From Gemmatimonadota bacterium (GTDB lineage: Bacteria; Gemmatimonadota; Gemmatimonadetes; Gemmatimonadales; Gemmatimonadaceae): 39,195 nt of DNA. The stretch lies in contig JAZKBK010000007.1 of assembly GCA_040388625.1 (NCBI GenBank), positions 1 through 39,195 on the forward strand, written 5' to 3'. The position numbers were made by a program, and so were the translations under genes. Shown piece by piece: positions 2,124 to 39,195 of this stretch. The notes beneath the pieces were generated by a model. That model saw nothing but the letters and a program-made list of their open reading frames with translations. It was not told where the DNA came from and did not search any database. The stretch's first letter is position 1, and every line of letters begins with the position of its first letter.

Positions 2124-3344
2124 TCACCACGTGATCCGGGCGTTCCAGCCAGGCGCGTAGCAGCCAACGTTTCCGTAGTAGCCAACGCGGATTTGGTAGG
2201 CGTCAGCCCCCGCCTCGCGCAGCCAGGTGTTTCCGTCGAGGTCGAGGATGTGCGGCACGTCTCCGCCCGAGCTCACAAGCTCCCAGGTGTCCATCTGGAG
2301 CAGCCAAGCGGTACCCTTGGGGCACTTGGGGTCGGATACGATCTTCACCGGGCCAGCGCCGGTTTCGACCTCGATGGCCTTATATCCAACGCCAGCGAGC
2401 GTTGAGTCGGCCGACGTGTACTCGCGCTTGGTCCCGAGCAGCTTGACCAGCGGCGATACGTCGAGGTTGTTGGCAAGGAGCGTGTCCGAGGTCCCATTCT
2501 CCTTGAGCACTCTGGCAACCGCCTCGATAAGCACTTCGTCCTGCGGGCCGCCGCTGCCGTTGTAGCGAACGCCGCCGAGGCGGGTGGTGTCGTCGGTTCG
2601 GTCGACACCGAAGAACGCCGTGGCGCCGGGGGCAGACGACGGGATCCAGGCTCCGAGGCCGCTCATGGCAGCGCCGAAGTCACCCTCGCGGAAGATGTAG
2701 TCGGTGTTGAGCGCTCCGGGGATCTGGGTGGACCAGTTGCCACCGGTGGTCGTCAGGGTGCCGAGGTCGCGATCGACGCCGGAGATCTGAACGTGCCCGC
2801 CGCGCACCGAGCCAGACGTGCCGTCGGTGCTAGCCAGCTGAACCCACATGCCCTTATCGAAGCGAGCGATGTCCGCCGGCTTGGAGAGGGTGATGGTCGC
2901 TCCGGCCATGGTGCTCGCGCCGTCGATGACTGCTCGAGCGCCGCCGCCGTTGCCGTAGAGGTCGATTTCCGCCGACTCGCCGCAAGTCTGAATGGCCGAG
3001 TCGAGCTCACCGGACAGCGCATTGACGAGCGACTGGGCGTTACCCTTGCACTCGGCGATGGTCTTGCCGGCGACGCTCGCAACGGCGTAGTCGGTCACCG
3101 TGGTGACTGCGAACTTCTTGTACGAGCTCGGGCCCGCGTTGGCCTGTGCGGTGCCGAAGTTGTGCGATCCGCCCGACACTCGGGCATAGCGCATGACGAA
3201 GTTTTTCTGATCGCCCGGACCGTCGGGGTCCTTGGGGATCATGCCCAGCAATGGCGACTTCTTGTACGCCATCTGCTGAACCTTTTTGGACTGGTACTTG
3301 GTCTTCAGGATCGGCGTTGCCGCCGTCGTATCGAATGCAGCCAT
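2124..3344 (-). CDS. Major capsid protein (406 aa)
   Basis: It probably forms the icosahedral shell with an HK97-type fold. Seen: length near 400 aa, an N-terminal arm (MAAFDTTAATPILKTKYQSK), the segment KKSPLLGMIPKDPDGPGDQKN that resembles the start of a capsid E-loop region, a central Gly/Ser-rich domain, and a beta-rich C-terminus ending YAPGWNARITW. The ATG at 3344 has a strong GGAGG 5 nt upstream. It lies directly after portal and scaffold genes, the standard order for this protein. No delta domain is obvious at the N-terminus, which fits the separate scaffold gene upstream. The role is secure from length, order and composition, although I could not run a fold search. Confidence 0.9.
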   Translation of the reverse strand: MAAFDTTAATPILKTKYQSKKVQQMAYKKSPLLGMIPKDPDGPGDQKNFVMRYARVSGGSHNFGTAQANAGPSSYKKFAVTTVTDYAVASVAGKTIAECKGNAQSLVNALSGELDSAIQTCGESAEIDLYGNGGGARAVIDGASTMAGATITLSKPADIARFDKGMWVQLASTDGTSGSVRGGHVQISGVDRDLGTLTTTGGNWSTQIPGALNTDYIFREGDFGAAMSGLGAWIPSSAPGATAFFGVDRTDDTTRLGGVRYNGSGGPQDEVLIEAVARVLKENGTSDTLLANNLDVSPLVKLLGTKREYTSADSTLAGVGYKAIEVETGAGPVKIVSDPKCPKGTAWLLQMDTWELVSSGGDVPHILDLDGNTWLREAGADAYQIRVGYYGNVGCYAPGWNARITW

Positions 3345-3386: not shown

Positions 3387-4349
3387 CTAGCGCCACCGCG
3401 AGTCGGCGCGCCTGAGCTCTTCCACGGCTAGCTGAGTGAGCTCTTTATCGCTCATCTCGAGGATGTCTTTGACCGTGCCGGGAGTCGCCCTAGACGCAGC
3501 GTCTTGGTTGGAGATCGAACGCTTTCGCGTTTCGGGCTGCGCCGACTTGACGGCTCCTGCTCGCTCGGAGTTCGTGGGCTCTTGTTGACCGCTCCCACGC
3601 TGGCGGTGTGCTTCGATGCGGCTGTAGTCTGCCGCTGTGTTAGCTTCCAAGTCAGCCAAGACTTTGTCAAGCGGTATTTCTTGGCCTGTGCGCTCGAAGT
3701 TGGAAATGACGATGCTTGTGGCACGTTGCCACACACTCTCCGGCGTATAGGCCGCAAGGTGCGGATACTTCGGCAGCACCGTCTCTACGTAGGGGCGCGT
3801 CTTGGCCATGTAGCTGGAGATGGCCGTCTGCTTCTCGGTCACCTCTGCGGCCTTGGCGCGAGCTTCCTCGTCAGCCTTGGCCTTGGCGTCGCGCTCTGCC
3901 AGCGTCTGCTCGAGCCTGGTCACGCGCTCGTTGGGGTCGTTCTCTTGGAGCGTGCGCTCCATCCAGCTCTTGTAGACGTTGGCCTTGGGTACACCGCGGA
4001 CCTTGGCCACCTGGTCGAGCAGCTTGTCCGGGTCGGTGTCGAGCAGGGCCAGGATCTCCTTGGCCTTGGCCTCGCGCTGCTCGAGTTCGCGTTCCTTCTC
4101 GACGGTGCGGCCTTCGCGCTGGTCGAGCCTGCCCTTGCGGCGGGACAGCTTCTCGCTCCATGCGGTCAGCTTGTCGACAGTGGGTTTAGGCTTCGCCTCC
4201 GCTGCCGGCTCGCCCTCCTTGCCTTCCGTCTCGACAACGTCACCGCCACCCTCTGCCGGCGCGGATTGGGGGCTCTCATCAACGGCAGAGGGGGCGGCAA
4301 CACTTTCGGCCGCGGCATCGCCGGCCTGAACTTTGGTCTCATCGCTCAT
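3387..4349 (-). CDS. Capsid scaffolding protein (320 aa)
   Basis: It probably directs procapsid assembly and is then lost from the head. Seen: an acidic, Pro/Ala/Glu-rich disordered N-terminus (about residues 1-55), a long charged helical and coiled-coil region (about 60-185) with dense Glu, Arg, Lys and Ala (KERELEQREAKAKEILALLD), and a helical C-terminus ending ELRRADSRWR, where basic residues would contact the shell. No protease motif is present. The ATG at 4349 overlaps the portal stop (ATGA), and the gene precedes the capsid gene by 42 nt. Order portal-scaffold-capsid and composition both support the call. Confidence 0.88.
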   Translation of the reverse strand: MSDETKVQAGDAAAESVAAPSAVDESPQSAPAEGGGDVVETEGKEGEPAAEAKPKPTVDKLTAWSEKLSRRKGRLDQREGRTVEKERELEQREAKAKEILALLDTDPDKLLDQVAKVRGVPKANVYKSWMERTLQENDPNERVTRLEQTLAERDAKAKADEEARAKAAEVTEKQTAISSYMAKTRPYVETVLPKYPHLAAYTPESVWQRATSIVISNFERTGQEIPLDKVLADLEANTAADYSRIEAHRQRGSGQQEPTNSERAGAVKSAQPETRKRSISNQDAASRATPGTVKDILEMSDKELTQLAVEELRRADSRWR

Positions 4350-6211
4350 TGAAGGACACTCCCAGGCGGGGGCCCTTGCGGTGGCGGAGCCGGACCGCCT
4401 GGCGTGCCCCCAGGCACCGGCGCTCCCACGACTGGAGACATCCCGCTAAGCTGCGGGTCCTGCCCGGCGCTCTTGCCGGCATTCATCAGCTCTTCCACAT
4501 CGGCCTGGAACTGGAGAATCAGATCCAGGTTCGCCGGCGGGCTCTTGCGGTATTTGTTCCGCGCCCACAGGTAGAAGTCGACGGACGTCTCAAGCGCCTC
4601 ATCGAGATCCATCTGCGGTAGCGGCCCTTGGTATTCGCCGTCCGTCAGCATGCGAGCGAGGCACTCGCGAACGTTGTTGTAGGAGGCGTCGCCCATCTCG
4701 GCGGCCTCCTCGAGCTCGGGGAAGTCGAGCAGGCGCTTACCCTCGGCCGGCGTGATCCATCCCGCGCCGGCCAGGTCTTGCACCTGCTGCATGCGCTGAG
4801 CGGGAGCGCTCGCAAGGGCCGAGGTGGGGAACACCTGGAGCACAGTCGGCTGGCGCTTCATGTCCGGCAGCTCGACTTCTTCGGTCTCGCGCTTGCCCAC
4901 GTAGATGACCGGCTTGCGGCCCGAGCGCTTCGCCATGTCGAGGAGCAACTCCGCCTCGTCCATGCAGAATTCCTCGTAGGCCTGCGCGAAGTCGGCGTAG
5001 CGGCTGTCCTCGATGTCCAGCGCCACCTCTTGGGCCTTGCCGCTCTTGAGGGTCGGATCCTTCTGCCCCGCCGCGGTCATCGCGTTGATGCCGGCCTCGC
5101 GGAACGAAGCGTCGACCAGCCACAGCAGGTGCTGGAACTTCTCGGGGTGCACCGTCTGCGCAACGGCGAACGTGGGCGCCGCGCCGGTGTATTCGAGGAT
5201 TCCGCCAATCTCGTTGTTGAAGTGCGACTTCAGGATCTTGGAGCCGCGCTCGCACAACACCCGGAAGTTCGAGCCGACGTGAAACGAGCGCTGAATCTCC
5301 ATCAGCAGCTTGTTGATCTCGAGCTGTTTGCCCGCGAGCAGCTGGGCCAGGCCAGAGCCGTACCAGCCCAGCACCGGCTCGCAGTAGCGAAGGAAGCGGT
5401 GTTGGAAGCCGGTTGAGTCGCCGAATTGCAGCGTGGCGCCAGGGATGACGATGGCGTCACGGCCATCACTTGCGCCTTCGCCCGACGGCAGGTGCCACGC
5501 CTCGCACACCTCGACTTGGTCACTCGGGACCATATCGCCAGCCGTCCAGCGGCCGCGATCGTCCCAGCCGGCTCGGTCGATCTCCGCCGCGAACTTCGGG
5601 AACTTCTCGGTGAGCACGAGCTTGTCCATCGTGCGCTGCTGGTAGAGGCACCGCGGATCGCCATACTTCGCGTCGGCATCGGCCACGTAGCATTCGGGCG
5701 TGAACGTGCGCTCGAGCGTCGGCTGGCCATCGTTGTCGTGCCCCCTCACGCCGCCGGTGCCGAAGATGAGCGCATCGCGCACCACCTTGCGGTTCAGCCG
5801 ATAGACCTTGTTCTCGTAGAACTGGCCTTCGCTGTACTTGTTGAGCTGCTTCGCCTGCTGCTGGAGGTCCCAGTCCCCCCCGCTGGTCAGCCAGAACGGG
5901 CGAGGCTTGCCCTTCACAATCTTCGCCAGCAGCGTGTCAATGACGCTGCGGACGATGTTCACGGACAGCGGCGCACTCGCGTATGCGGCCTGCGTCGTGT
6001 AGCTGGTGACGCCAAACCCCTGCACAAGGTCAGCGCCGTAGAGGCAATAGTGAATCAGGTCGCGGTCGGTGCGCGCGCTCTGGTTCTCTTTGATGCGGTT
6101 GACGATGCTGAAGATGGCGTCGTGTGCCGGCTGGATTGGGTCGCCTTTCTCGTCCTTCGGCCACCAGCGCTGATCGCGCGCCTCGCCCCCGGTGACCGCG
6201 AGGCTGCTCAC
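4346..6211 (-). CDS. Portal protein (621 aa)
   Basis: It forms the dodecameric DNA channel at the capsid vertex and docks the terminase. Seen: an N-terminal Trp/Lys-rich segment, then AYASAPLSVNIVRSVIDTLLAKIVKGKPRPFWLTSGGDW, a region typical of the podoviral portal wing, a helix-rich clip and stem region (about 270-330, LLAGKQLEINKLLMEIQRSFH), and a Pro/Gly-rich tail (about 590-621). The GTG start at 6211 overlaps the stop of the 79-aa gene (GTGA). It follows the large terminase by one gene and precedes the scaffold, the usual order. Length is within the range for large podoviral portals. Confidence 0.92.
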   Translation of the reverse strand: MSSLAVTGGEARDQRWWPKDEKGDPIQPAHDAIFSIVNRIKENQSARTDRDLIHYCLYGADLVQGFGVTSYTTQAAYASAPLSVNIVRSVIDTLLAKIVKGKPRPFWLTSGGDWDLQQQAKQLNKYSEGQFYENKVYRLNRKVVRDALIFGTGGVRGHDNDGQPTLERTFTPECYVADADAKYGDPRCLYQQRTMDKLVLTEKFPKFAAEIDRAGWDDRGRWTAGDMVPSDQVEVCEAWHLPSGEGASDGRDAIVIPGATLQFGDSTGFQHRFLRYCEPVLGWYGSGLAQLLAGKQLEINKLLMEIQRSFHVGSNFRVLCERGSKILKSHFNNEIGGILEYTGAAPTFAVAQTVHPEKFQHLLWLVDASFREAGINAMTAAGQKDPTLKSGKAQEVALDIEDSRYADFAQAYEEFCMDEAELLLDMAKRSGRKPVIYVGKRETEEVELPDMKRQPTVLQVFPTSALASAPAQRMQQVQDLAGAGWITPAEGKRLLDFPELEEAAEMGDASYNNVRECLARMLTDGEYQGPLPQMDLDEALETSVDFYLWARNKYRKSPPANLDLILQFQADVEELMNAGKSAGQDPQLSGMSPVVGAPVPGGTPGGPAPPPQGPPPGSVLQ

Positions 6212-6447
6212 TCGACGGCCTTCTTGGCTCGAGGCACTAGGCGGACGGTGTTGCCAGAGGAGCGGAACAACAGGTCGAGGGCCGCCTGCTCCACCTCGGT
6301 GGGAGTCAGCTCCTTGGCGGGCGCCTCATCGGCAGGCTGTGCAACTACTGCCCGACCTAGCTCAAGCTGGATCTCGCCAGAGCGATAGCTGTGCACTCCG
6401 TGCTCGCGGAGTAGTGCAAGGAGTGCACGTAGCTCGTCCAGGCCCAC
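6208..6447 (-). CDS. Unknown protein between terminase and portal (79 aa)
   Basis: The frame opens just after a TGA at 6481-6483, and GTG at 6447 is the first usable start. No clear ribosome site precedes it. The protein is helical: LDELRALLALLREHG, a Pro/Ala linker, then LTPTEVEQAALDLLFRSS and a basic end. The stop overlaps the portal start (GTGA). I do not recognise it. A small helical protein here may act in packaging or portal assembly, which is inference from position only. Confidence 0.65.
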   Translation of the reverse strand: MGLDELRALLALLREHGVHSYRSGEIQLELGRAVVAQPADEAPAKELTPTEVEQAALDLLFRSSGNTVRLVPRAKKAVE

Positions 6448-6513: not shown

Positions 6514-7914
6514 CTACCAAAAGCGCCGGCTGAACCAGTCCACTCCCTGCTCGTCGGCCTCTTTGCGGCGCTCCCAGCGCTCCATGTGCTGCCGGCGTAG
6601 GCGCTCCTCTTCACTTGGCTCCGGCTCCAGGCTCGGGTCGGCATCCTCAGCGAACGCCTTGCACTCGCGCCAGCCGTAGAGGGCGGCGTCGAGGCAGTGG
6701 TTATCGAACCGCGGGTCCTCCTTCTCGCGCTTCTCGTCCCACTGGCAGATGGTCGCCTCCTCGACCCATTGCTTGCACTTGTCGGCCACTACGCGGATGA
6801 GCCCCGACTTGAGGTCGCCGTTGAACAGCTCGATGTAGCCACGCTTGTTGGTCTTCTGCGCGGGCATGATGGGCACCGCGAACCGCTGGCGAGCCTCCTC
6901 GGCGAAGCCCTTGCCGAGCCCCCCGACGTCGCCGACGATGCGGTCGAAGTGCCACTTGGCGTTTAGCTCGCGGACGATGCGCGCCGCTTCCGAGGGGATG
7001 AGGCCCGTTTGGCCCCAGCATTCGAGGAGGACGCACGTTTGCTGGTGCGGCTCCCACGCCCAGATGGCAAAAGCGGTTGCGTCGACCACACCATAATCGC
7101 ACCCAAGGATGGTCTGTCGAGCAGGCCCGCCGCCCAGAACTCCAGTGCCGTTTCGAGTCGGCTCATATTGATAGACCAGCGACCCACTGTCACGTACCCA
7201 TTCACCGAGCCATTCCCTGCGGTAGATCGGGTGGTCCTCGGTCCAATGGTTCGCTTTGCGCTCATGGTCTAGCTCCTCTCGGGCGTGGGGTACGTGAGGG
7301 TTTTCCAGCACCGTCCAATGGTGGAGCTTGAAGGGGCTGGCTGGGTCGGTAGTAGCGTCATGGAACAGCCCAACACAGGCAGCCCCTGGCGTCCCAATAA
7401 GGCATAGAGTGCCTCGAAGGTCGATGAGAGCTGGCCGCAGGATTTCTCGTACGAGACTCTCAAGAACCGAAGGCCTAAAGCTGGCGGCTTCGTCCACGAT
7501 TGCCAGGAGGTACTTGCCTCCACGTAGCCGCTCGATGGTAGCCGCATCATCAGCGCCAACGAGGAAGATGCTTGATCCATTGGGTAGCCTCGCAGTGAGC
7601 TCGGAATGGTTGAAGGTGAGGCCGAGCGAGTGCCGGTGGTCGAAGCGGATGAGCTCCTCCCACAGCAGCCGCTTGGCCGATGCGCGGGTCAGCGCGATGT
7701 ACGCCGACACCGTGCCAGGGTTGCGGAAGGCGGCTAGCAGCAGGTAAGCGCACGCGGCGTACGTCTTACCCGCCCGACGCGAGCAGAGCGCCGCTTTGGC
7801 CCTGCCCGCATCGGCGATGAACGCGAGCTGCTGGGCAAACAGCTCGCGCACGAAGGGGGGCGTGCCCCACCGCTTCTCCGCCTCCAGCACCAGTGGGAGG
7901 ATGTCGTCAGGCAT
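6514..7914 (-). CDS. Terminase large subunit (466 aa)
   Basis: This is the ATP-driven DNA packaging motor with a headful or site-specific nuclease. Seen: a Walker A-type motif CSRRAGKT at residues 44-51, a Walker B motif LLAIVDEA near residue 137, a TGTPG-like motif (CLIGTPGAA), and a C-terminal RNase H-fold nuclease with acidic residues in GCDYGVVD, in IVGDVGGLGKG and in DNHCLDAALYGWR. The C-terminal 45 residues are charged, typical of portal docking. The ATG at 7914 overlaps the stop of a 25-aa membrane peptide gene. Length is at the short end for the family, but both domains look complete. Confidence 0.95.
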   Translation of the reverse strand: MPDDILPLVLEAEKRWGTPPFVRELFAQQLAFIADAGRAKAALCSRRAGKTYAACAYLLLAAFRNPGTVSAYIALTRASAKRLLWEELIRFDHRHSLGLTFNHSELTARLPNGSSIFLVGADDAATIERLRGGKYLLAIVDEAASFRPSVLESLVREILRPALIDLRGTLCLIGTPGAACVGLFHDATTDPASPFKLHHWTVLENPHVPHAREELDHERKANHWTEDHPIYRREWLGEWVRDSGSLVYQYEPTRNGTGVLGGGPARQTILGCDYGVVDATAFAIWAWEPHQQTCVLLECWGQTGLIPSEAARIVRELNAKWHFDRIVGDVGGLGKGFAEEARQRFAVPIMPAQKTNKRGYIELFNGDLKSGLIRVVADKCKQWVEEATICQWDEKREKEDPRFDNHCLDAALYGWRECKAFAEDADPSLEPEPSEEERLRRQHMERWERRKEADEQGVDWFSRRFW

Positions 7915-7984
7915 CGCCTCGCCAATGCGCCCCGAGAATGAACCCGAGAGCGAGCACCATCAGCATTGCGATTAGCTGGCTCAC
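7907..7984 (-). CDS. Single-span membrane micropeptide (25 aa)
   Basis: A GTG at 7984 overlaps the preceding stop (GTGA), and its own TGA (7907-7909) overlaps the terminase start region. The translation is MSQLIAMLMVLALGFILGAHW followed by RGDA: one hydrophobic span with a polar C-terminus. Coupled starts on both sides support translation. The function is unknown. It could be a holin-like or membrane-modulating peptide, but no family can be assigned at this length. Confidence 0.5.
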   Translation of the reverse strand: MSQLIAMLMVLALGFILGAHWRGDA

Positions 7985-8100
7985 TTGGGGTGCGTGCCCA
8001 CGTGTTTCATTATGCCGACGAATGCTCGGACGCCAATCCACCCGCCGTGCCACACGACACTGCACAGCAGCCACCAATAGAAGAATTGCCAGAACGTCAT
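7981..8100 (-). CDS. Trp-rich membrane micropeptide (39 aa)
   Basis: The ATG at 8100 follows a clear GGAGG (spacing 5). The protein begins MTFWQFFYWWLLCSVVWHGG and continues to a basic end (IMKHVGTHPK). Five Trp and four Phe sit mostly in one membrane-spanning segment. The stop overlaps the next GTG start. The strong ribosome site makes this the best supported of the three micro-ORFs here. The function is unknown. Confidence 0.6.
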   Translation of the reverse strand: MTFWQFFYWWLLCSVVWHGGWIGVRAFVGIMKHVGTHPK

Positions 8101-8110
8101 GATTGCCTCC

Positions 8111-8188
8111 TCACACGCATCCCCGAAAGTCGACGGTCGCCGTCCCGCAGTAATGGCAGCAGCACCAGCACCAGAGTAGGACGCTCAC
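8111..8188 (-). CDS. Cys-rich micropeptide (25 aa)
   Basis: The GTG at 8188 overlaps the stop of the zinc-finger gene (GTGA). The translation starts MSVLLWCWCCCHYCGTATVD and ends FRGCV. Six Cys and one His in 25 residues, five of the Cys within eight positions, suggest metal binding or palmitoyl-like membrane attachment, although neither is proven. The stop lies just before the ribosome site of the next micro-ORF. Short length keeps confidence moderate. Confidence 0.45.
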   Translation of the reverse strand: MSVLLWCWCCCHYCGTATVDFRGCV

Positions 8189-8637
8189 GGGTGCTTGCTC
8201 CTCACGTGCGCAGCCATGCCGGCGCCGCTTCGGAATTGCTCGGCGCAGTGGGCGCACTTGAACGTGCCAAGAGCCACATCGATGTCATCGCGAGGCACTT
8301 CCACGCGTCCCCGATGTTCTCCGCCATGCAGCGCAGCCGCGTGCGTCTGCATCGTCAATCCGGCGGCTCGCAACGCCACGCCGTCCATCGGGTCAGGCTC
8401 GAACCTCCGCGCCCACTCCGCCTCCGGCCCCACCGGCACCCTGAACGCCATCGACGCGGGGCTGATGACGTACGCGCCCTTGTTGATCCACACGCTGCCG
8501 CCGGCGTCCTCGTCCAGGTCGGTGATGGTCACCCGCTTGTCCTGGACGTGGATCTGGCCCCCGATGGCTATAACGCGGCTCGTGAACAGGCGCACCGCGG
8601 CGCTGTTGTCCATCAGCTCGATGCGTGAGAGCCTCAT
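8185..8637 (-). CDS. Protein with C-terminal C2H2-type zinc finger (150 aa)
   Basis: The last 25 residues contain FKCAHCAEQF followed by HVRSKHP, giving C-x2-C-x12-H-x4-H, a classical C2H2 spacing that is uncommon in phages. The N-terminal 75 residues are beta-rich (AIGGQIHVQDKRVTITDLDED) with no family I recognise, then comes a charged linker. The ATG at 8637 overlaps the stop of the co-chaperonin gene (ATGA). Position between co-chaperonin and large terminase suggests a role in packaging or late regulation. The finger could bind DNA or RNA, but the DNA target is unknown. Confidence 0.75.
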   Translation of the reverse strand: MRLSRIELMDNSAAVRLFTSRVIAIGGQIHVQDKRVTITDLDEDAGGSVWINKGAYVISPASMAFRVPVGPEAEWARRFEPDPMDGVALRAAGLTMQTHAAALHGGEHRGRVEVPRDDIDVALGTFKCAHCAEQFRSGAGMAAHVRSKHP

Positions 8638-9017
8638 TGCAGGTTCTCCTCACGGCGGATGATGCAGATGATGTACGGCGCCCCGATGGGGTTGCCGTGC
8701 GGGTCGGTCTTGAGGTCAGCCGGCGGCGCATCGCAGACCATGTAGTAATGTTTGCCGTCCGTCTGGAACCCGATGGCCTTGCCGACGAATTTGCACCGGT
8801 CGCCAACGCGAATGCCCGACGTGCACCCTGGCCCCACGGCCATGACCTCGGCCTCCTCGGTGCCGCTCTCGTTGTTGTCGCCCGTTGGGATGATAATGCC
8901 GCTCGCGGTCTTGTGCTCCTCGCTGACCCGCTCGACCACGATCCAATTGTGCAGCGGCTCGAGTGACCGCGACTTCTCCGTGAATAGCTTGACCGCCGAA
9001 ACCGTCGCTGTTCGCAT
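8634..9017 (-). CDS. GroES-like co-chaperonin (127 aa)
   Basis: Seen: LEPLHNWIVVERVSEEHKTA, then SGIIIP, EAEVMAVGPG, IRVGDRCKF and DGKHYYMV in order. These match the GroES landmarks (RPLxDRVxVxR, KTAGGIxxP, GxVxAVGPG, VKVGDxVLF). The GIIIP stretch falls where the GroEL-binding mobile loop lies. Compared with GroES (about 97 aa) there is a C-terminal extension (about residues 95-127) containing DLKTDPHGNPIGAPYII. Known: phage T4 gp31 and related proteins replace GroES so that the large capsid protein folds in GroEL. Inferred: this protein does the same for the capsid or another virion protein. The start ATG at 9017 is in a TAATG overlap with the terminase small subunit gene. Confidence 0.8.
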   Translation of the reverse strand: MRTATVSAVKLFTEKSRSLEPLHNWIVVERVSEEHKTASGIIIPTGDNNESGTEEAEVMAVGPGCTSGIRVGDRCKFVGKAIGFQTDGKHYYMVCDAPPADLKTDPHGNPIGAPYIICIIRREENLQ

Positions 9018-9562
9018 TAGTGTATTTCCTTTCGTTCCTCTGCCTGGTCCAACGCTGCCTTGAGCCGCGCGCGCAGCTCGTCGTCTGTCATGTCTGCTGC
9101 CACGGCCTTCGTCTCCACCTTGCGCACCAGCGCACCCTTGATCTCCGCCTGGAGCCGCACGGCGTTGATGGCCGCGCCCACGTTCTGCGCCGGCTTGCTG
9201 ACCAGCTCATCGCCCACCTTGAACCACTTCACCTCATCCATGGCCGCCGCCTGGAGCGCCTCCAGCTCGGCCATCTTCTGGTCGATGAATTCCTCAATGG
9301 GTGAGCCCCGCCGCCGGATGACACCGCTGGCAACCAGGGCCCTGTCCGCCACGGTGCGCGGATGGATGCCCCATTCCTTGGCCAGCGCCTCGGAGCTGCG
9401 ACCGCCGAACCAGCGGCCAGCCATCATCATGCGGATGATGTGGTCCTCCTGCTCCACCTTGGTCAGCTCGCGCGCGCGTGAGGAGTCGGCGAAGGGCGGC
9501 CCCTCTGCATCGCCAGGGACGAAGACGTAGCCTGTGCTGCTGGGGGGCTTCCGCTTACTCAT
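9017..9562 (-). CDS. Probable terminase small subunit (181 aa)
   Basis: The N-terminal half reads as a HTH domain: KVEQEDHIIRMMMAGRWFGG, then SEALAKEWGIHPRTVADRAL (about residues 60-85). The C-terminal half is long-helical (EEFIDQKMAELEALQAAAMDEV) and ends with charged helices, as in DNA-recognising small terminase rings. It precedes the large terminase by one short cluster. The ATG at 9562 overlaps the upstream stop. A HTH regulator is the alternative, but the size, helical C-terminus and packaging context favour the terminase call. Confidence 0.7.
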   Translation of the reverse strand: MSKRKPPSSTGYVFVPGDAEGPPFADSSRARELTKVEQEDHIIRMMMAGRWFGGRSSEALAKEWGIHPRTVADRALVASGVIRRRGSPIEEFIDQKMAELEALQAAAMDEVKWFKVGDELVSKPAQNVGAAINAVRLQAEIKGALVRKVETKAVAADMTDDELRARLKAALDQAEERKEIH

Positions 9563-9821
9563 CCCCGCCCCCGTGAATGTTTCCGCTGCCCGGCGCAACC
9601 TGTTGTGACGGTAAGGGCGTCTGTGTCTGCTCTGCCTTCGCGGCACACACGGTCGAGCACACATTGACGGGATGTCCATCGATGGCGGCCCACATCCAGC
9701 CAGGAGGCATGCATGTCACCCTAGCCGACGGGAAGTGCACGATCCCAACGGAGCCCAATTCCGACTTGCCGCACACATCGCAAGTCTCGACGTCTGGCGC
9801 GTACCAGTTGACCTTGCTCAC
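9555..9821 (-). CDS. Zinc-ribbon-like small protein (88 aa)
   Basis: A GTG at 9821 follows a purine-rich GGAGGCGGAGG and overlaps the previous stop (GTGA). The N-terminus carries CDVCGKSE, and a second CxxxC lies downstream (NVCSTVCAAK), together a plausible four-Cys zinc site. HFPSARVTCMPPGWMW in between looks like a compact beta hairpin. The last 20 residues are Gln/Pro/Gly-rich and disordered. Function unknown. Confidence 0.7.
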   Translation of the reverse strand: MSKVNWYAPDVETCDVCGKSELGSVGIVHFPSARVTCMPPGWMWAAIDGHPVNVCSTVCAAKAEQTQTPLPSQQVAPGSGNIHGGGDE

Positions 9822-13277: not shown

Positions 13278-13768
13278 GCGGTCTCCTTGGGGGCCTGCGC
13301 GCATCTGCACTTGTGGTCCTCGCACGCGGGTCCGCAGTAGCTGCAATTCCACCATTGGGCCGGCAGTCCGCACGGTTCGCCAGTTGGCTCATGGTCATCA
13401 CCATCGAGATACGGGCGCTGCTTGCAGGTTCGCTCCCCCGCCTCGGCCGCCGCGAGCGCTCGCTCAGCGGTATCAACGGCCTCCAGCAGCTCGGGGTGCG
13501 AATAGTCGTCGTCGCCGCGAATGATCTTGGCAAGGCCGGACCGCGCCTCCCTCACCGCCGCCGCGGGCGTGGCGCGCAAGATCGAAAGCTCGCGCTCCAG
13601 CTGGCCAATCTGCTCTATGGCATCCTCTGTCAGCTCCGCCGCGCGCTTCTCGGCGGCTTCGGCGCGGGCGAGCGCATTCGACAAGCGCCGCGCCTCGTAG
13701 CACTGCGTGCAGTTGATGTGGCCATGCGGGCAGTCCAGCTCGGCCTCGGTGATGGGGGCGCCGCTCAT
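13274..13768 (-). CDS. Zinc-binding coiled-coil protein (164 aa)
   Basis: The start is MSGAPITEAELDCPHGHINC at 13768, with GGAGG 4 nt upstream and an ATGA overlap with the ligase stop. An N-terminal C/H cluster (CPHGHINCTQC) precedes a long helix (ALARAEAAEKRAAELTEDAI and onward, about residues 35-65), then a C-terminal cluster (WNCSYCGPACEDHKCRC). Two metal sites flank a coiled coil. This resembles many phage early-region proteins of unknown role. Confidence 0.72.
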   Translation of the reverse strand: MSGAPITEAELDCPHGHINCTQCYEARRLSNALARAEAAEKRAAELTEDAIEQIGQLERELSILRATPAAAVREARSGLAKIIRGDDDYSHPELLEAVDTAERALAAAEAGERTCKQRPYLDGDDHEPTGEPCGLPAQWWNCSYCGPACEDHKCRCAQAPKETA

Positions 13769-15063
13769 GCTGCCTCCCGATAGCCCAGGAGCTGCATCAA
13801 GGATTCGATCCGCATCTCGGCGAAGAACCTGCGGATCGAGCTGGTCTTTCCCGCTCGCACCGCGAACAGGGCCGCCGAGCAACGTGTTTTGACCGCCCGG
13901 ATGGCGAAGTCCTTCTGCGCCTCAATCCCGCGCAGGCTGGCAAAGTCGGCTTCGACTTCGGTCGTGAGCCCATCGAGCCGAGCCTTCGCGTCGTCGAGCA
14001 GCGGCTTGAACTCAGGGAAGGCCGTCAGCACCTCGGAGGTTTCGCCAGCCCGCGCGATCTCAACGAATGCCTTCTGCGACATGCCGTCCTTGGCACGGTG
14101 GAGCGCGACGTAGCCAGGGTGCTTCACCTTGATGCGGTTGAATGCCCCGTCGACGATCACGTATCCCTCTTGGGTGAGCGGCGACATTGACGCGAAGGAT
14201 GCGGCGATCTCCTTGATGCTGGTCAGCGGGAACTCGCGGACCTCGCGAGCGTTGCAGTCGAACGCGCGCGCCGCCTGCCCAACGGGTAGCTCCGCCATGC
14301 TCACGAGATCGCGGGCCCCGAGCAGGGTCAGGCTCGGCTCGGCGTGCACCACGACGATCCGATTGGCCGGGCCGGTCAGCTCGAAGAAGAAGCAATGCTC
14401 GGCCGCCCGTGTCCCTTCCGGCAGACGCCAACCGTGAGCCGCGAAGGTCCGCCAGAAGTAGTCGGCGAACCTGTCCGAGCCTTGGACGTCACCCGATGCG
14501 TCCGGCGTGCCCGACGTGGCCACGTGCCACTCGCCCGCGTATGGGTAGAGCACGCACAGGGAGCCGTCGAGCTTCTCCTGGACGCGCGCTGTCGACCAAT
14601 CGATGGGCGCAGCGTGGCCCTCTCCCTCGTTGAAGAACTTGTCGAAGGCCCGAGAGACCACCCGCCACCCGTCGGCCTCGTCGAGGATGACGCCGCGGCA
14701 TTCGCGGACGATGGGCTCGGCGAAGGGGGACTCGATCTGGTTGTACTTGAACAGAACGAGCTGCGAGTGGATGCCGTGGCGCCGATGTGTGATGGCGTAC
14801 TTGGTGCGCAGTTCCTCCGGCGAGCCGCCGCCGCGGAGGAACGATTGGAGCAGCATCTCCGGCGGGCGATCGGTCCCCGAAACGGTCCCCGACATGGTGG
14901 ACGGTAGCGGTTTTTGTAGGGACGACACGGCATCGCCAGAAAGCTCCGATGCGGTGCCATTCGCCTTGTTTTGCAGCGTTTCATGCTGCTTTTGGTGGCT
15001 GACGTTGCCGGGTTCGATTCCCGGCGCCTCCACCTCAACAACGCTTGTTTCTCGCTGATTCAT
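13765..15063 (-). CDS. T4 Rnl1-family RNA ligase (432-aa frame; conserved domain from residue 70)
   Basis: An ATP-dependent ligase that seals 5'-phosphate and 3'-OH RNA ends through a covalent lysyl-AMP. Seen: motif I EKLDGS with K164, the upstream RECRGVILDE and VVSRAFDKFFNEGEGHAA, FFFELTGPANRIVV (motif IIIa-like), EGYVIVDG (motif IV) and IKVKHPGYV (motif V) with K312 and K314, then a helical C-terminus. The full nucleotidyltransferase core looks intact. ATG 15063 has GGAGG 10 nt upstream and overlaps the integrase stop, so I use it. Residues 10-19 are the reverse reading of the attP tRNA-like core, and homology begins at Met70 (14856). That start gives about 363 aa, near T4 Rnl1 (374 aa). 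After integration only the internal starts (14895 or 14856) would remain with the phage. No polynucleotide kinase gene is present in the genome. Confidence 0.88.
   Translation of the reverse strand: MNQRETSVVEVEAPGIEPGNVSHQKQHETLQNKANGTASELSGDAVSSLQKPLPSTMSGTVSGTDRPPEMLLQSFLRGGGSPEELRTKYAITHRRHGIHSQLVLFKYNQIESPFAEPIVRECRGVILDEADGWRVVSRAFDKFFNEGEGHAAPIDWSTARVQEKLDGSLCVLYPYAGEWHVATSGTPDASGDVQGSDRFADYFWRTFAAHGWRLPEGTRAAEHCFFFELTGPANRIVVVHAEPSLTLLGARDLVSMAELPVGQAARAFDCNAREVREFPLTSIKEIAASFASMSPLTQEGYVIVDGAFNRIKVKHPGYVALHRAKDGMSQKAFVEIARAGETSEVLTAFPEFKPLLDDAKARLDGLTTEVEADFASLRGIEAQKDFAIRAVKTRCSAALFAVRAGKTSSIRRFFAEMRIESLMQLLGYREAA
15007..15034 (+). other. Candidate attP core: 3' end of a tRNA-like gene
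   Basis: On the plus strand, CCGGG-TTCGATT-CCCGG (15008-15024) folds as a perfect T-arm with a standard seven-base loop. Acceptor strand CGCCTCC (15025-15031), discriminator A and CC follow. No anticodon arm or 5' acceptor strand is present, so it is not a functional tRNA. It lies 26 bp beyond the integrase stop, the usual place of attP for tRNA-targeting integrases. U at position 70 with discriminator A is the pattern of tmRNA or tRNA-Ala (G3-U70), so host ssrA or an alanine tRNA is the probable attB. Confidence 0.75.
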
Positions 15064-16157
15064 GAGCTTTCGTCCTCCGACCGGTCCCTAACCGGTCCCT
15101 GGGCTCCCGCCGTGTGACTTGTCGTCCCGCGCTGTTCGAGCAGGCCCACCGCGTCGATCTTCACGTCGGGCGACAGGTGGGCATACCGCATGGTCATCTT
15201 GAGATCGCTGTGGCCGAGCAGCTCTTGGATGGTCTTGATGGGCACGCCTCGCATGGCCAGGTGGCTTGCGAAGGTATGGCGGAGTACGTGCCAGCCGATG
15301 CGGCGGAGCCCCGCGGCCGCGCACGCCGACCAGAGCGGCCACTTGCATTCGCCCCGAGTCAGTATGCTCCCGTGCTCGTCGTCGAAAACATAGATTGACC
15401 CGACGCCAGCATCGGCTTGCTCGAGCGCCGCCATGGCGGTCTTGTTGAGCGGCACCTCCCTCGGCTTGTGGCTCTTGGGCGTGGTCACCTCGCCGCGCAC
15501 AATGGCCTGCCGGACGACCATCTTGGTCCCGTGGATGTCGGACCAGCGGAGCCCGAGCAGTTCGCCGTGGCGGAGCCCAGTGTTAAGCGCGAAGGCGACC
15601 ATGTGGCGCCAGTCGCCAGCGGAAGCGATGAGCCGGTCGGCCTCGTCGAAGGTGAGAAAGTCGAAGTCCTGCACCGGCACCCGAAGCCGCTTGATGCGCG
15701 GTCCCGAGCTCACACGGTGCCAGTCGATGGCCAACGAGTAGAGCTTGGACAGAACGGCCAGGTGATTATTGACCGTCTTGGGTGACAGCTTGAGCTCTAC
15801 CTTGGCGGCCTTGTACGCCTCCACGTCCTCGTCGGCGATTTCGTCGAGCCGGTTGCCGGAGAACCAGGGGGTCAGGTGGGTGTCCAGAATCTGCTTCTTG
15901 GACTGGTACTCGCTGAGCTTGTTGTTGACCTTGGCGTACTTCTCGAGGAAGTCCTTTGCGAAGTCGCCGAAGTCGGGCGCCTTGCTGCCGGGGTCGCGCT
16001 TGTGCTCGAGCTTCGCCCGCAGCGTGCGCTCCATCGCCTGCGCCTCGCTCTTGTTGCGAGCCCCCTTTGCGGCCTGCTTCACACGCACAGCCTTGCCGCC
16101 GCGCCGAATGACGATATCGATGCGCCACCGGCCATCCTTGCGCTTGATGACGCTCAT
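15060..16157 (-). CDS. int: Tyrosine integrase (365 aa)
   Basis: This enzyme integrates and excises the phage at attP. Seen: an N-terminal arm-binding domain with IKRKDGRWRIDIVIRRGGKA, a SAM-like core-binding domain (DFGDFAKDFLEKYA to ALVSKLYSL-type helices), and a catalytic domain with the first Arg in ALNTGLRHGELLGLRW, the HxLRH box in WHVLRHTFASH, and GHSDLKMTMRYAHL, which carries the His and the nucleophile Tyr. All key residues are present. The start is ATG 16157, because it overlaps the excisionase stop (ATGA). The 9-codon upstream extension lacks a ribosome site. The gene order xis-int-attP is standard for tRNA-gene integration. Confidence 0.95.
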   Translation of the reverse strand: MSVIKRKDGRWRIDIVIRRGGKAVRVKQAAKGARNKSEAQAMERTLRAKLEHKRDPGSKAPDFGDFAKDFLEKYAKVNNKLSEYQSKKQILDTHLTPWFSGNRLDEIADEDVEAYKAAKVELKLSPKTVNNHLAVLSKLYSLAIDWHRVSSGPRIKRLRVPVQDFDFLTFDEADRLIASAGDWRHMVAFALNTGLRHGELLGLRWSDIHGTKMVVRQAIVRGEVTTPKSHKPREVPLNKTAMAALEQADAGVGSIYVFDDEHGSILTRGECKWPLWSACAAAGLRRIGWHVLRHTFASHLAMRGVPIKTIQELLGHSDLKMTMRYAHLSPDVKIDAVGLLEQRGTTSHTAGAQGPVRDRSEDESS

Positions 16158-16378
16158 CGGGTGCCACCGCCGGCTGCCCACCATGCGACCGCGGTTGGTC
16201 GATGGATACGGATGGCCCCGCGGAACCTGCGCGCGCCCGGCAGCTGCTTTGCCTCTACCATCGCGTAAACGGTCTTGCGGTCCAGTCGAAACAGCTTGGC
16301 CGCCTCGTCTACGGTCAGCGACTCTGGCTCGGCTTCGTCCGCCGACAAATGCGACCTGGCGCGCTCGGCTGCGCTCAC
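16154..16378 (-). CDS. xis: Excisionase-type HTH protein (74 aa)
   Basis: Residues about 21-65 form a MerR/AlpA-type helix-turn-helix with wing: LTVDEAAKLFRLDRKTVYAM, then VEAKQLPGARRFRGAIRIHR. This is the common DNA-binding domain of phage and island excisionases. The GTG at 16378 lies just past the stops of the preceding ORFs, and its stop overlaps the integrase start. It probably bends att DNA and sets integrase direction. It may also regulate the operon. It is near the family's usual length. Confidence 0.85.
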   Translation of the reverse strand: MSAAERARSHLSADEAEPESLTVDEAAKLFRLDRKTVYAMVEAKQLPGARRFRGAIRIHRPTAVAWWAAGGGTR

Positions 16379-38732: not shown

Positions 38733-39195
38733 CGCAGACCCACTCCCCACGGCCACGCGCTGACCGATGTCACATCCTGGATGCGTCCAGGCTCGGACTG
38801 GTTGCGCTCGGCCATCGATGCGATGCGCGCCTCCATGCGCGCCTTGCGCGGAGCGAGCAGCGCGGCGTCGCCGTCGTTGCCTTCGTGCTCTAGACACTTC
38901 ATGGCCGCGTCGAGGATGACCCACTCTTCCCAACCGTTGTAGCCGTCGAAGGTGTCCGAGTCGGCCGACAGGCGCACCGCCGCCGGGATGTACTTCAGGA
39001 TCAGCGCATAGACGCTGTTGGGCGCTGGCGAAAAGCGCAGGTTGGCGACCTGGAGCCGGTAGCGGATGTCGCTATATACCGACCAGCCGGCACCCTGGAT
39101 GTAGTCCTCGGCTTCGGCCGGCTGCGTCTGCGTCAGCCGGTGCTTGTAGCCGCCGTTGTTCCAGAACAGCCCGGTCAGCTTGTAGAAGCCATTGG
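38729..39195 (-). CDS. Head-tail adaptor/neck-like protein, C-terminal part (gene spans the circle junction)
   Basis: This is the second part of the 224-aa protein begun at 263. It reads in frame from 39140 to its stop at 38729, and 39141-39195 repeats bases 1-55. The segment includes a helical linker, RYRLQVANLRFSPAPNSVYA, VRLSADSDTFDGYNGWEEWV and a C-terminal helix (LAPRKARMEARIASMAERNQ). The FDGYNGWEEWVILDAA stretch is one I recall from phage neck adaptors. The stop overlaps the next start (ATGA). Confidence 0.8.
   Translation of the reverse strand, partial: NGFYKLTGLFWNNGGYKHRLTQTQPAEAEDYIQGAGWSVYSDIRYRLQVANLRFSPAPNSVYALILKYIPAAVRLSADSDTFDGYNGWEEWVILDAAMKCLEHEGNDGDAALLAPRKARMEARIASMAERNQSEPGRIQDVTSVSAWPWGVGLR
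39141..39195. repeat. Right copy of 55-bp terminal direct repeat
   Basis: Exact duplicate of bases 1-55. See the left copy. It is a contig-closure overlap, not a physical phage terminus, because the coding frame runs through it unbroken. Confidence 0.93.

Follow-up and report, generated by a model that had tools for sequence, protein, structure and literature searches.

Bacteriophage T4 encodes gp31, a co-chaperonin that lacks the roof loops of GroES and folds gp23 (PMC6318259). A GroES from a siphovirus was reported in 2015, in a study that also noted earlier cases from myoviruses and podoviruses (PMC4294664). The 13 core genes of the HTVC023P-type pelagiphages, which are podoviruses, include groES (PMC9599517), and the GroES of roseophage CRP-902 is on record as well (PMC10149686). 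In the podoviruses of 40–60 kb in which we found GroES, its gene is located shortly before the capsid genes; in ct2G2228 (40 kb), HTVC027P, CRP-902 and 023Pt_psg01 it precedes the capsid gene by a few genes. The GroES of ct2G2228 retrieved 20 IMG/VR loci when used as a query, and that of CRP-902 retrieved 434 IMG/VR stretches. Among the ct2G2228-type loci that we examined, terminase, portal and capsid genes surround GroES in L127 and L134, and portal and capsid genes do so in L140. An earlier note on the DNA described here held that phage co-chaperonins come mostly from large phages and that one in a 39-kb podovirus is unusual, a view that is outdated given these IMG/VR stretches and the core status of the gene in HTVC023P-type phages. 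We left aside, because they may be host DNA, records labeled as phages of Acinetobacter, Salmonella, Listeria and Enterococcus with housekeeping-like GroES proteins.

The window (i.e., the whole 39,195-nucleotide stretch analyzed) is a phage contig in an assembly from the Gemmatimonadota, a phylum whose phages are little described. Its co-chaperonin gene adds a divergent and compact member to the phage GroES proteins and otherwise confirms a known strategy. Like T4 gp31, the protein has a predicted Cpn10 fold (Z 8.1–8.8 to gp31), a mobile loop, a shortened roof and a head-protein context; unlike gp31, to which it is only 13–14% identical, it has a mobile loop of about 18 residues by alignment (22 in gp31), an insertion ahead of the final strand, and a 39-kb genome around it rather than that of a large myovirus. 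It shares with HTVC023P-type pelagiphages, roseophages CRP-901/902 and ct2G2228-type phages a small podoviral genome and a place in the head module, but identity to these proteins is 20–30%, the 17-residue insertion is missing from those that we aligned, and their genes are found shortly before the capsid genes whereas ours is upstream of terL. Bacterial GroES/Cpn10 proteins resemble it in fold (Z up to 11.2), in the Gly-hydrophobic tripeptide and in the EV-AVG and VGD motifs, and differ from it in sequence (22–37% identity), in the roof, which is 8 residues shorter here than in Escherichia coli, and in lacking the insertion and the N-terminal extension.

A GroES-type gene in the head and packaging block

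The earlier note had called a 127-aa ORF at 8634–9017, which exists but reads on the minus strand; the plus strand has internal stops in the same register. G+C at codon positions 1, 2 and 3 is 58, 45 and 85%, which fits a coding frame of a GC-rich genome. The gene and its neighbors are as follows.

8634–9017, minus strand: phage GroES/Cpn10 co-chaperonin (groES), 127 aa, 13.8 kDa, ATG start
9017–9679, minus strand: upstream gene, resembling a small terminase gene in position only; its stop codon (TAA) shares bases with the groES ATG (TAATG)
8185–8637, minus strand: orf150, downstream gene of 150 aa between groES and terL; its start overlaps the groES stop (ATGA)
6514–7914, minus strand: terminase large subunit (terL), 466 aa; PF03237 8.1e-10, PF17289 5.5e-6, phrog_2 2.7e-36
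4346–6211, minus strand: portal protein, 621 aa, 68.5 kDa; phrog_156 4.8e-5, with homologues adjoining terL in relatives
2124–3344, minus strand: major capsid protein (MCP), 406 aa, 42.4 kDa; NF033394 capsid_maj_Podo 1e-22, 80.8 bits against a cut-off of 80; phrog_14242 1.6e-17

The identity claimed by the earlier note, which had proposed a Cpn10 HMM search as a check, holds: the product scored 41.9 bits (E = 1e-10) against Pfam PF00166 Cpn10, above the gathering cut-off of 21.1, and the fold and mobile loop described below agree. It also matched phrog_3188 (co-chaperonin GroES) in PHROGs at 1.5e-12 and solved GroES chains at a best E of 4.5e-7. A GroES profile made from 33 other proteins, with the 127-aa protein left out, recovered the ORF (35.5 bits, 4.4e-9) and found no second match in the window. 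The best NCBIfam co-chaperone GroES model gave 38.3 bits and did not reach its cut-off of 120, which marks the protein, on sequence, as a divergent member of the Cpn10 family rather than a housekeeping orthologue.

On the minus strand the genes run in the order terS-like, groES, orf150, terL, portal, a 320-aa ORF without a name, and MCP. The phage groES thus has the location among head genes looked for in a gp31-like function, with codon overlaps on both sides and terL, portal and MCP downstream. The small terminase gene that the earlier note placed beside it fits by position, but Pfam, PHROGs and NCBIfam searches returned nothing for the 9017–9679 product. A C2H2 zinc-finger-like motif is present at the C terminus of orf150, where all Pfam matches fall below their cut-offs.

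The window is one entire contig of a 3.84-Mb, 22-contig assembly. Bases 1–55 and 39141–39195 are identical, so the contig probably represents a circular phage genome of 39,140 bp closed on an assembler k-mer, 55 bases being a common k-mer length. A tyrosine integrase gene (15060–16184, minus strand; PF00589 6.1e-30) suggests a temperate podovirus, though this probably circular contig stands apart from those of the chromosome. Directly beside the integrase is a gene for a T4 Rnl1-like RNA ligase (13765–15063, minus strand; PF09511 3.6e-14), whose product also matches phrog_562, "RNA ligase and tail fiber protein attachment catalyst", at 1.9e-41. We found no tRNA within the window. Comparison of the integrase region with the chromosome contigs of the assembly gave no convincing att match; the bacterium of the assembly is thus a candidate host only. 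This bacterium has its own groES, whose product finds its nearest relatives among Gemmatimonadota proteins (89% to one from a Gemmatimonadetes MAG), and beside that gene a single-copy groEL at C1:483180–484691. No GroEL was recognized on the phage contig.

Protein anatomy and predicted structure

Alignments to E. coli GroES and to 33 other GroES sequences delimit the following segments of the protein.

8967–9017, minus strand: N-terminal extension, residues 1–17, ahead of the usual GroES start (LEPLH); pLDDT below 50 at residues 2–12
8862–8927, minus strand: mobile-loop segment, residues 31–52, 2 residues longer than in E. coli GroES; pLDDT 58 over residues 41–50
8889–8897, minus strand: putative GroEL-binding tripeptide I41-I42-I43
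8802–8834, minus strand: shortened roof segment, residues 62–72, with no strand predicted between 62 and 73
8673–8729, minus strand: 17-residue insertion within residues 97–115, between the penultimate and last strands (flanking strands predicted at 89–95 and 115–121)
8655–8675, minus strand: last beta-strand YIICIIR, residues 115–121, equivalent to ILAIVEA of E. coli GroES; from the alignment, both AlphaFold2 models and VIA alignments reaching residues 119–127

By alignment, the N-terminal strand LEPLHNWIVVER is kept, as are the EV-AVG strand and the VGD turn. Residues G40-I41-I42-I43 align with G24-I25-V26-L27 of the E. coli mobile loop, and the glycine is conserved. From Gly62 to Gly72 there are only 10 residue steps, against 18 in E. 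coli GroES (G44–G62), so the roof beta-hairpin, a trait of the canonical bacterial GroES subtype, is missing. The roof is shortened similarly, by eye, in other viral GroES proteins (L140, L310), and N-terminal extensions, here of ~17 residues, are also found in other phage GroES proteins. The 30-residue C-terminal extension described in the earlier note is really the 17-residue insertion ahead of the last strand (alignment; predicted strand 115–121), after which only six residues follow. The insertion is absent from all 33 of the other aligned GroES sequences; it is, in these alignments, the only unusual part of the protein, unseen elsewhere among the sequences aligned.

AlphaFold2 with a 34-sequence alignment gave a model with a mean pLDDT of 76.2 and a pTM of 0.67, in which the barrel is confident and the N terminus and mobile loop are low. 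Compared with the PDB by VIA, this model has co-chaperonins as all 16 of its best matches (Z 11.2–8.1), T4 gp31 among them (1g31, Z 8.1; 2cgt, Z 8.8); Z then falls to 6.6 or below for oxidoreductases that share the GroES-like fold. The top 25 Foldseek matches in the PDB are GroES/Cpn10 proteins, with gp31 at rank 27, and those viral Foldseek matches that bear names are GroES/Cpn10 proteins too. A single-sequence model was not confident (pLDDT 35), so the predicted fold leans on the GroES alignment, yet its C-terminal strands fall at about the same places. The beta-barrel and the mobile-loop-like segment, either of whose absence the earlier note had said beforehand would speak against a GroES, are both present in these predictions and alignments.

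A probable role in head morphogenesis and its alternatives

We think it probable that this protein is a phage GroES-type co-chaperonin that acts as a heptameric lid on host GroEL for a phage head protein, likeliest the MCP. Its identity and fold are supported by sequence and structure prediction, and we infer that it forms a ring, binds GroEL and serves such a client. The phage GroES would form a heptamer that caps the putative host GroEL, single copy in the same assembly. Its shortened roof would make for a more open dome, as has been described for gp31, and such a reduced-roof cage would suit a phage head protein, likeliest the 42.4-kDa MCP, as gp31 does gp23. The position of groES within the head and packaging block, with codon overlaps, together with podoviral homologues upstream of capsid genes, argues for a morphogenesis role. 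In line with the earlier note, we infer that the protein may adjust the host chaperonin for a virion protein, a proposal that fits the operon position and the precedents of T4 gp31 and the podoviruses.

The accepted limit of the GroEL–GroES cage is ~60 kDa. Two clients had been proposed in the earlier note: the capsid protein, which at 42.4 kDa fits the cage, and the nozzle protein, which we reject on size because the nozzle-like protein, at 110.6 kDa, is too big. The ORF call for the latter gives 1033 aa instead of the 995 aa first given, and start codon choice may explain the difference. The portal, at 68.5 kDa, is somewhat above the limit. Since the MCP lies below it, a bigger cage is not obviously needed.

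That the capsid protein fits a normal cage is also what one would expect if the phage GroES were an additional co-chaperonin of general use, boosting GroEL capacity or tolerance in infection, with no dedicated virion substrate. The mobile loop and binding tripeptide are GroES-like, and shortened roofs in other viral GroES proteins (L140, L310) are likewise consistent with this. We nevertheless consider it unlikely, because groES lies inside the head and packaging block with overlapping start and stop codons and its podoviral homologues are directly upstream of capsid genes. Less probable again, and by a good deal, is that the protein keeps the GroES fold but no longer binds GroEL and now serves the virion as a structural or assembly component. 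Its location among head genes, the insertion and N-terminal extension, and a weak match to phrog_931 "head morphogenesis" (5.6e-4) would agree with such a role, but the mobile loop and the hydrophobic GIII are kept, and phrog_931 scores far more poorly than the co-chaperonin family phrog_3188.

What counts against a head-protein client is that phages with a related MCP manage without GroES in the records tested. MCP homologues came from two IMG/VR scans, 13 loci in one (26–39% identity) and, in the other, the best 80 of 284 with an MCP alignment (37–42%); over these 93 rows identity was 26–42%, with a median of 39%. For the terminase, identity was 27–47% in the 13 loci of the first scan, and a single fragment, L166, gave 55%. 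Searches for Cpn10 in the entire records of those 13 loci, in 34 of the longer records from the second scan and, by profile, in 103 loci yielded nothing. Many of these records are fragments, so this absence holds only for the stretches in the records; more than 1.5 kb upstream of terL is present in 30 of the 93 distinct loci. Because these phages are without groES there, comparing phages with related structural genes could reveal the head protein that needs the phage lid. Several relatives (L007, L009, L015, L147, L172, L181) have different small accessory genes in the place upstream of terL, and by eye some of these resemble GNAT acetyltransferases or ClpP/SppA-like proteases.

Origin of the phage gene

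With the window protein as query, we found no close relative in IMG/VR or in GTDB species genomes. Genomes of the same family and order gave weak matches only (E 6e-4 or worse), and the loci among them that we read (L004, L031, L033) encode bacterial GroES of the ordinary kind. In a tree of 43 rows, the podoviral GroES proteins form one clade (100/98) that excludes the window protein, whose own branch is long. Forcing it into the podoviral clade was not rejected (p-AU 0.29), while forcing it into the Gemmatimonadota GroES proteins was weakly rejected (p-AU 0.04).

Within our preferred reading of a lid for a head protein, a narrower version is conceivable, though we hold it only tentatively and think it more doubtful than otherwise: the protein may be a lineage-specific roofless co-chaperonin, acquired separately from the podoviral GroES clade, whose insertion tailors the lid to one head protein. 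A recent copy of the host groES taken up as cargo is very improbable, for although the bacterium of the assembly has its own GroES and the phage protein has the fold and motifs of bacterial GroES, the two are only 27% identical, the grouping with Gemmatimonadota GroES is weakly rejected, and the phage GroES stands on a long branch of its own.

Another small phage may have a complete chaperonin pair aboard: L310 (IMGVR_UViG_3300030503_000341, 40,111 bp) encodes a short-roofed GroES at ~6001–6258 and, just downstream at 6992–8743, a GroEL that matches phrog_5725 at 4.7e-108.
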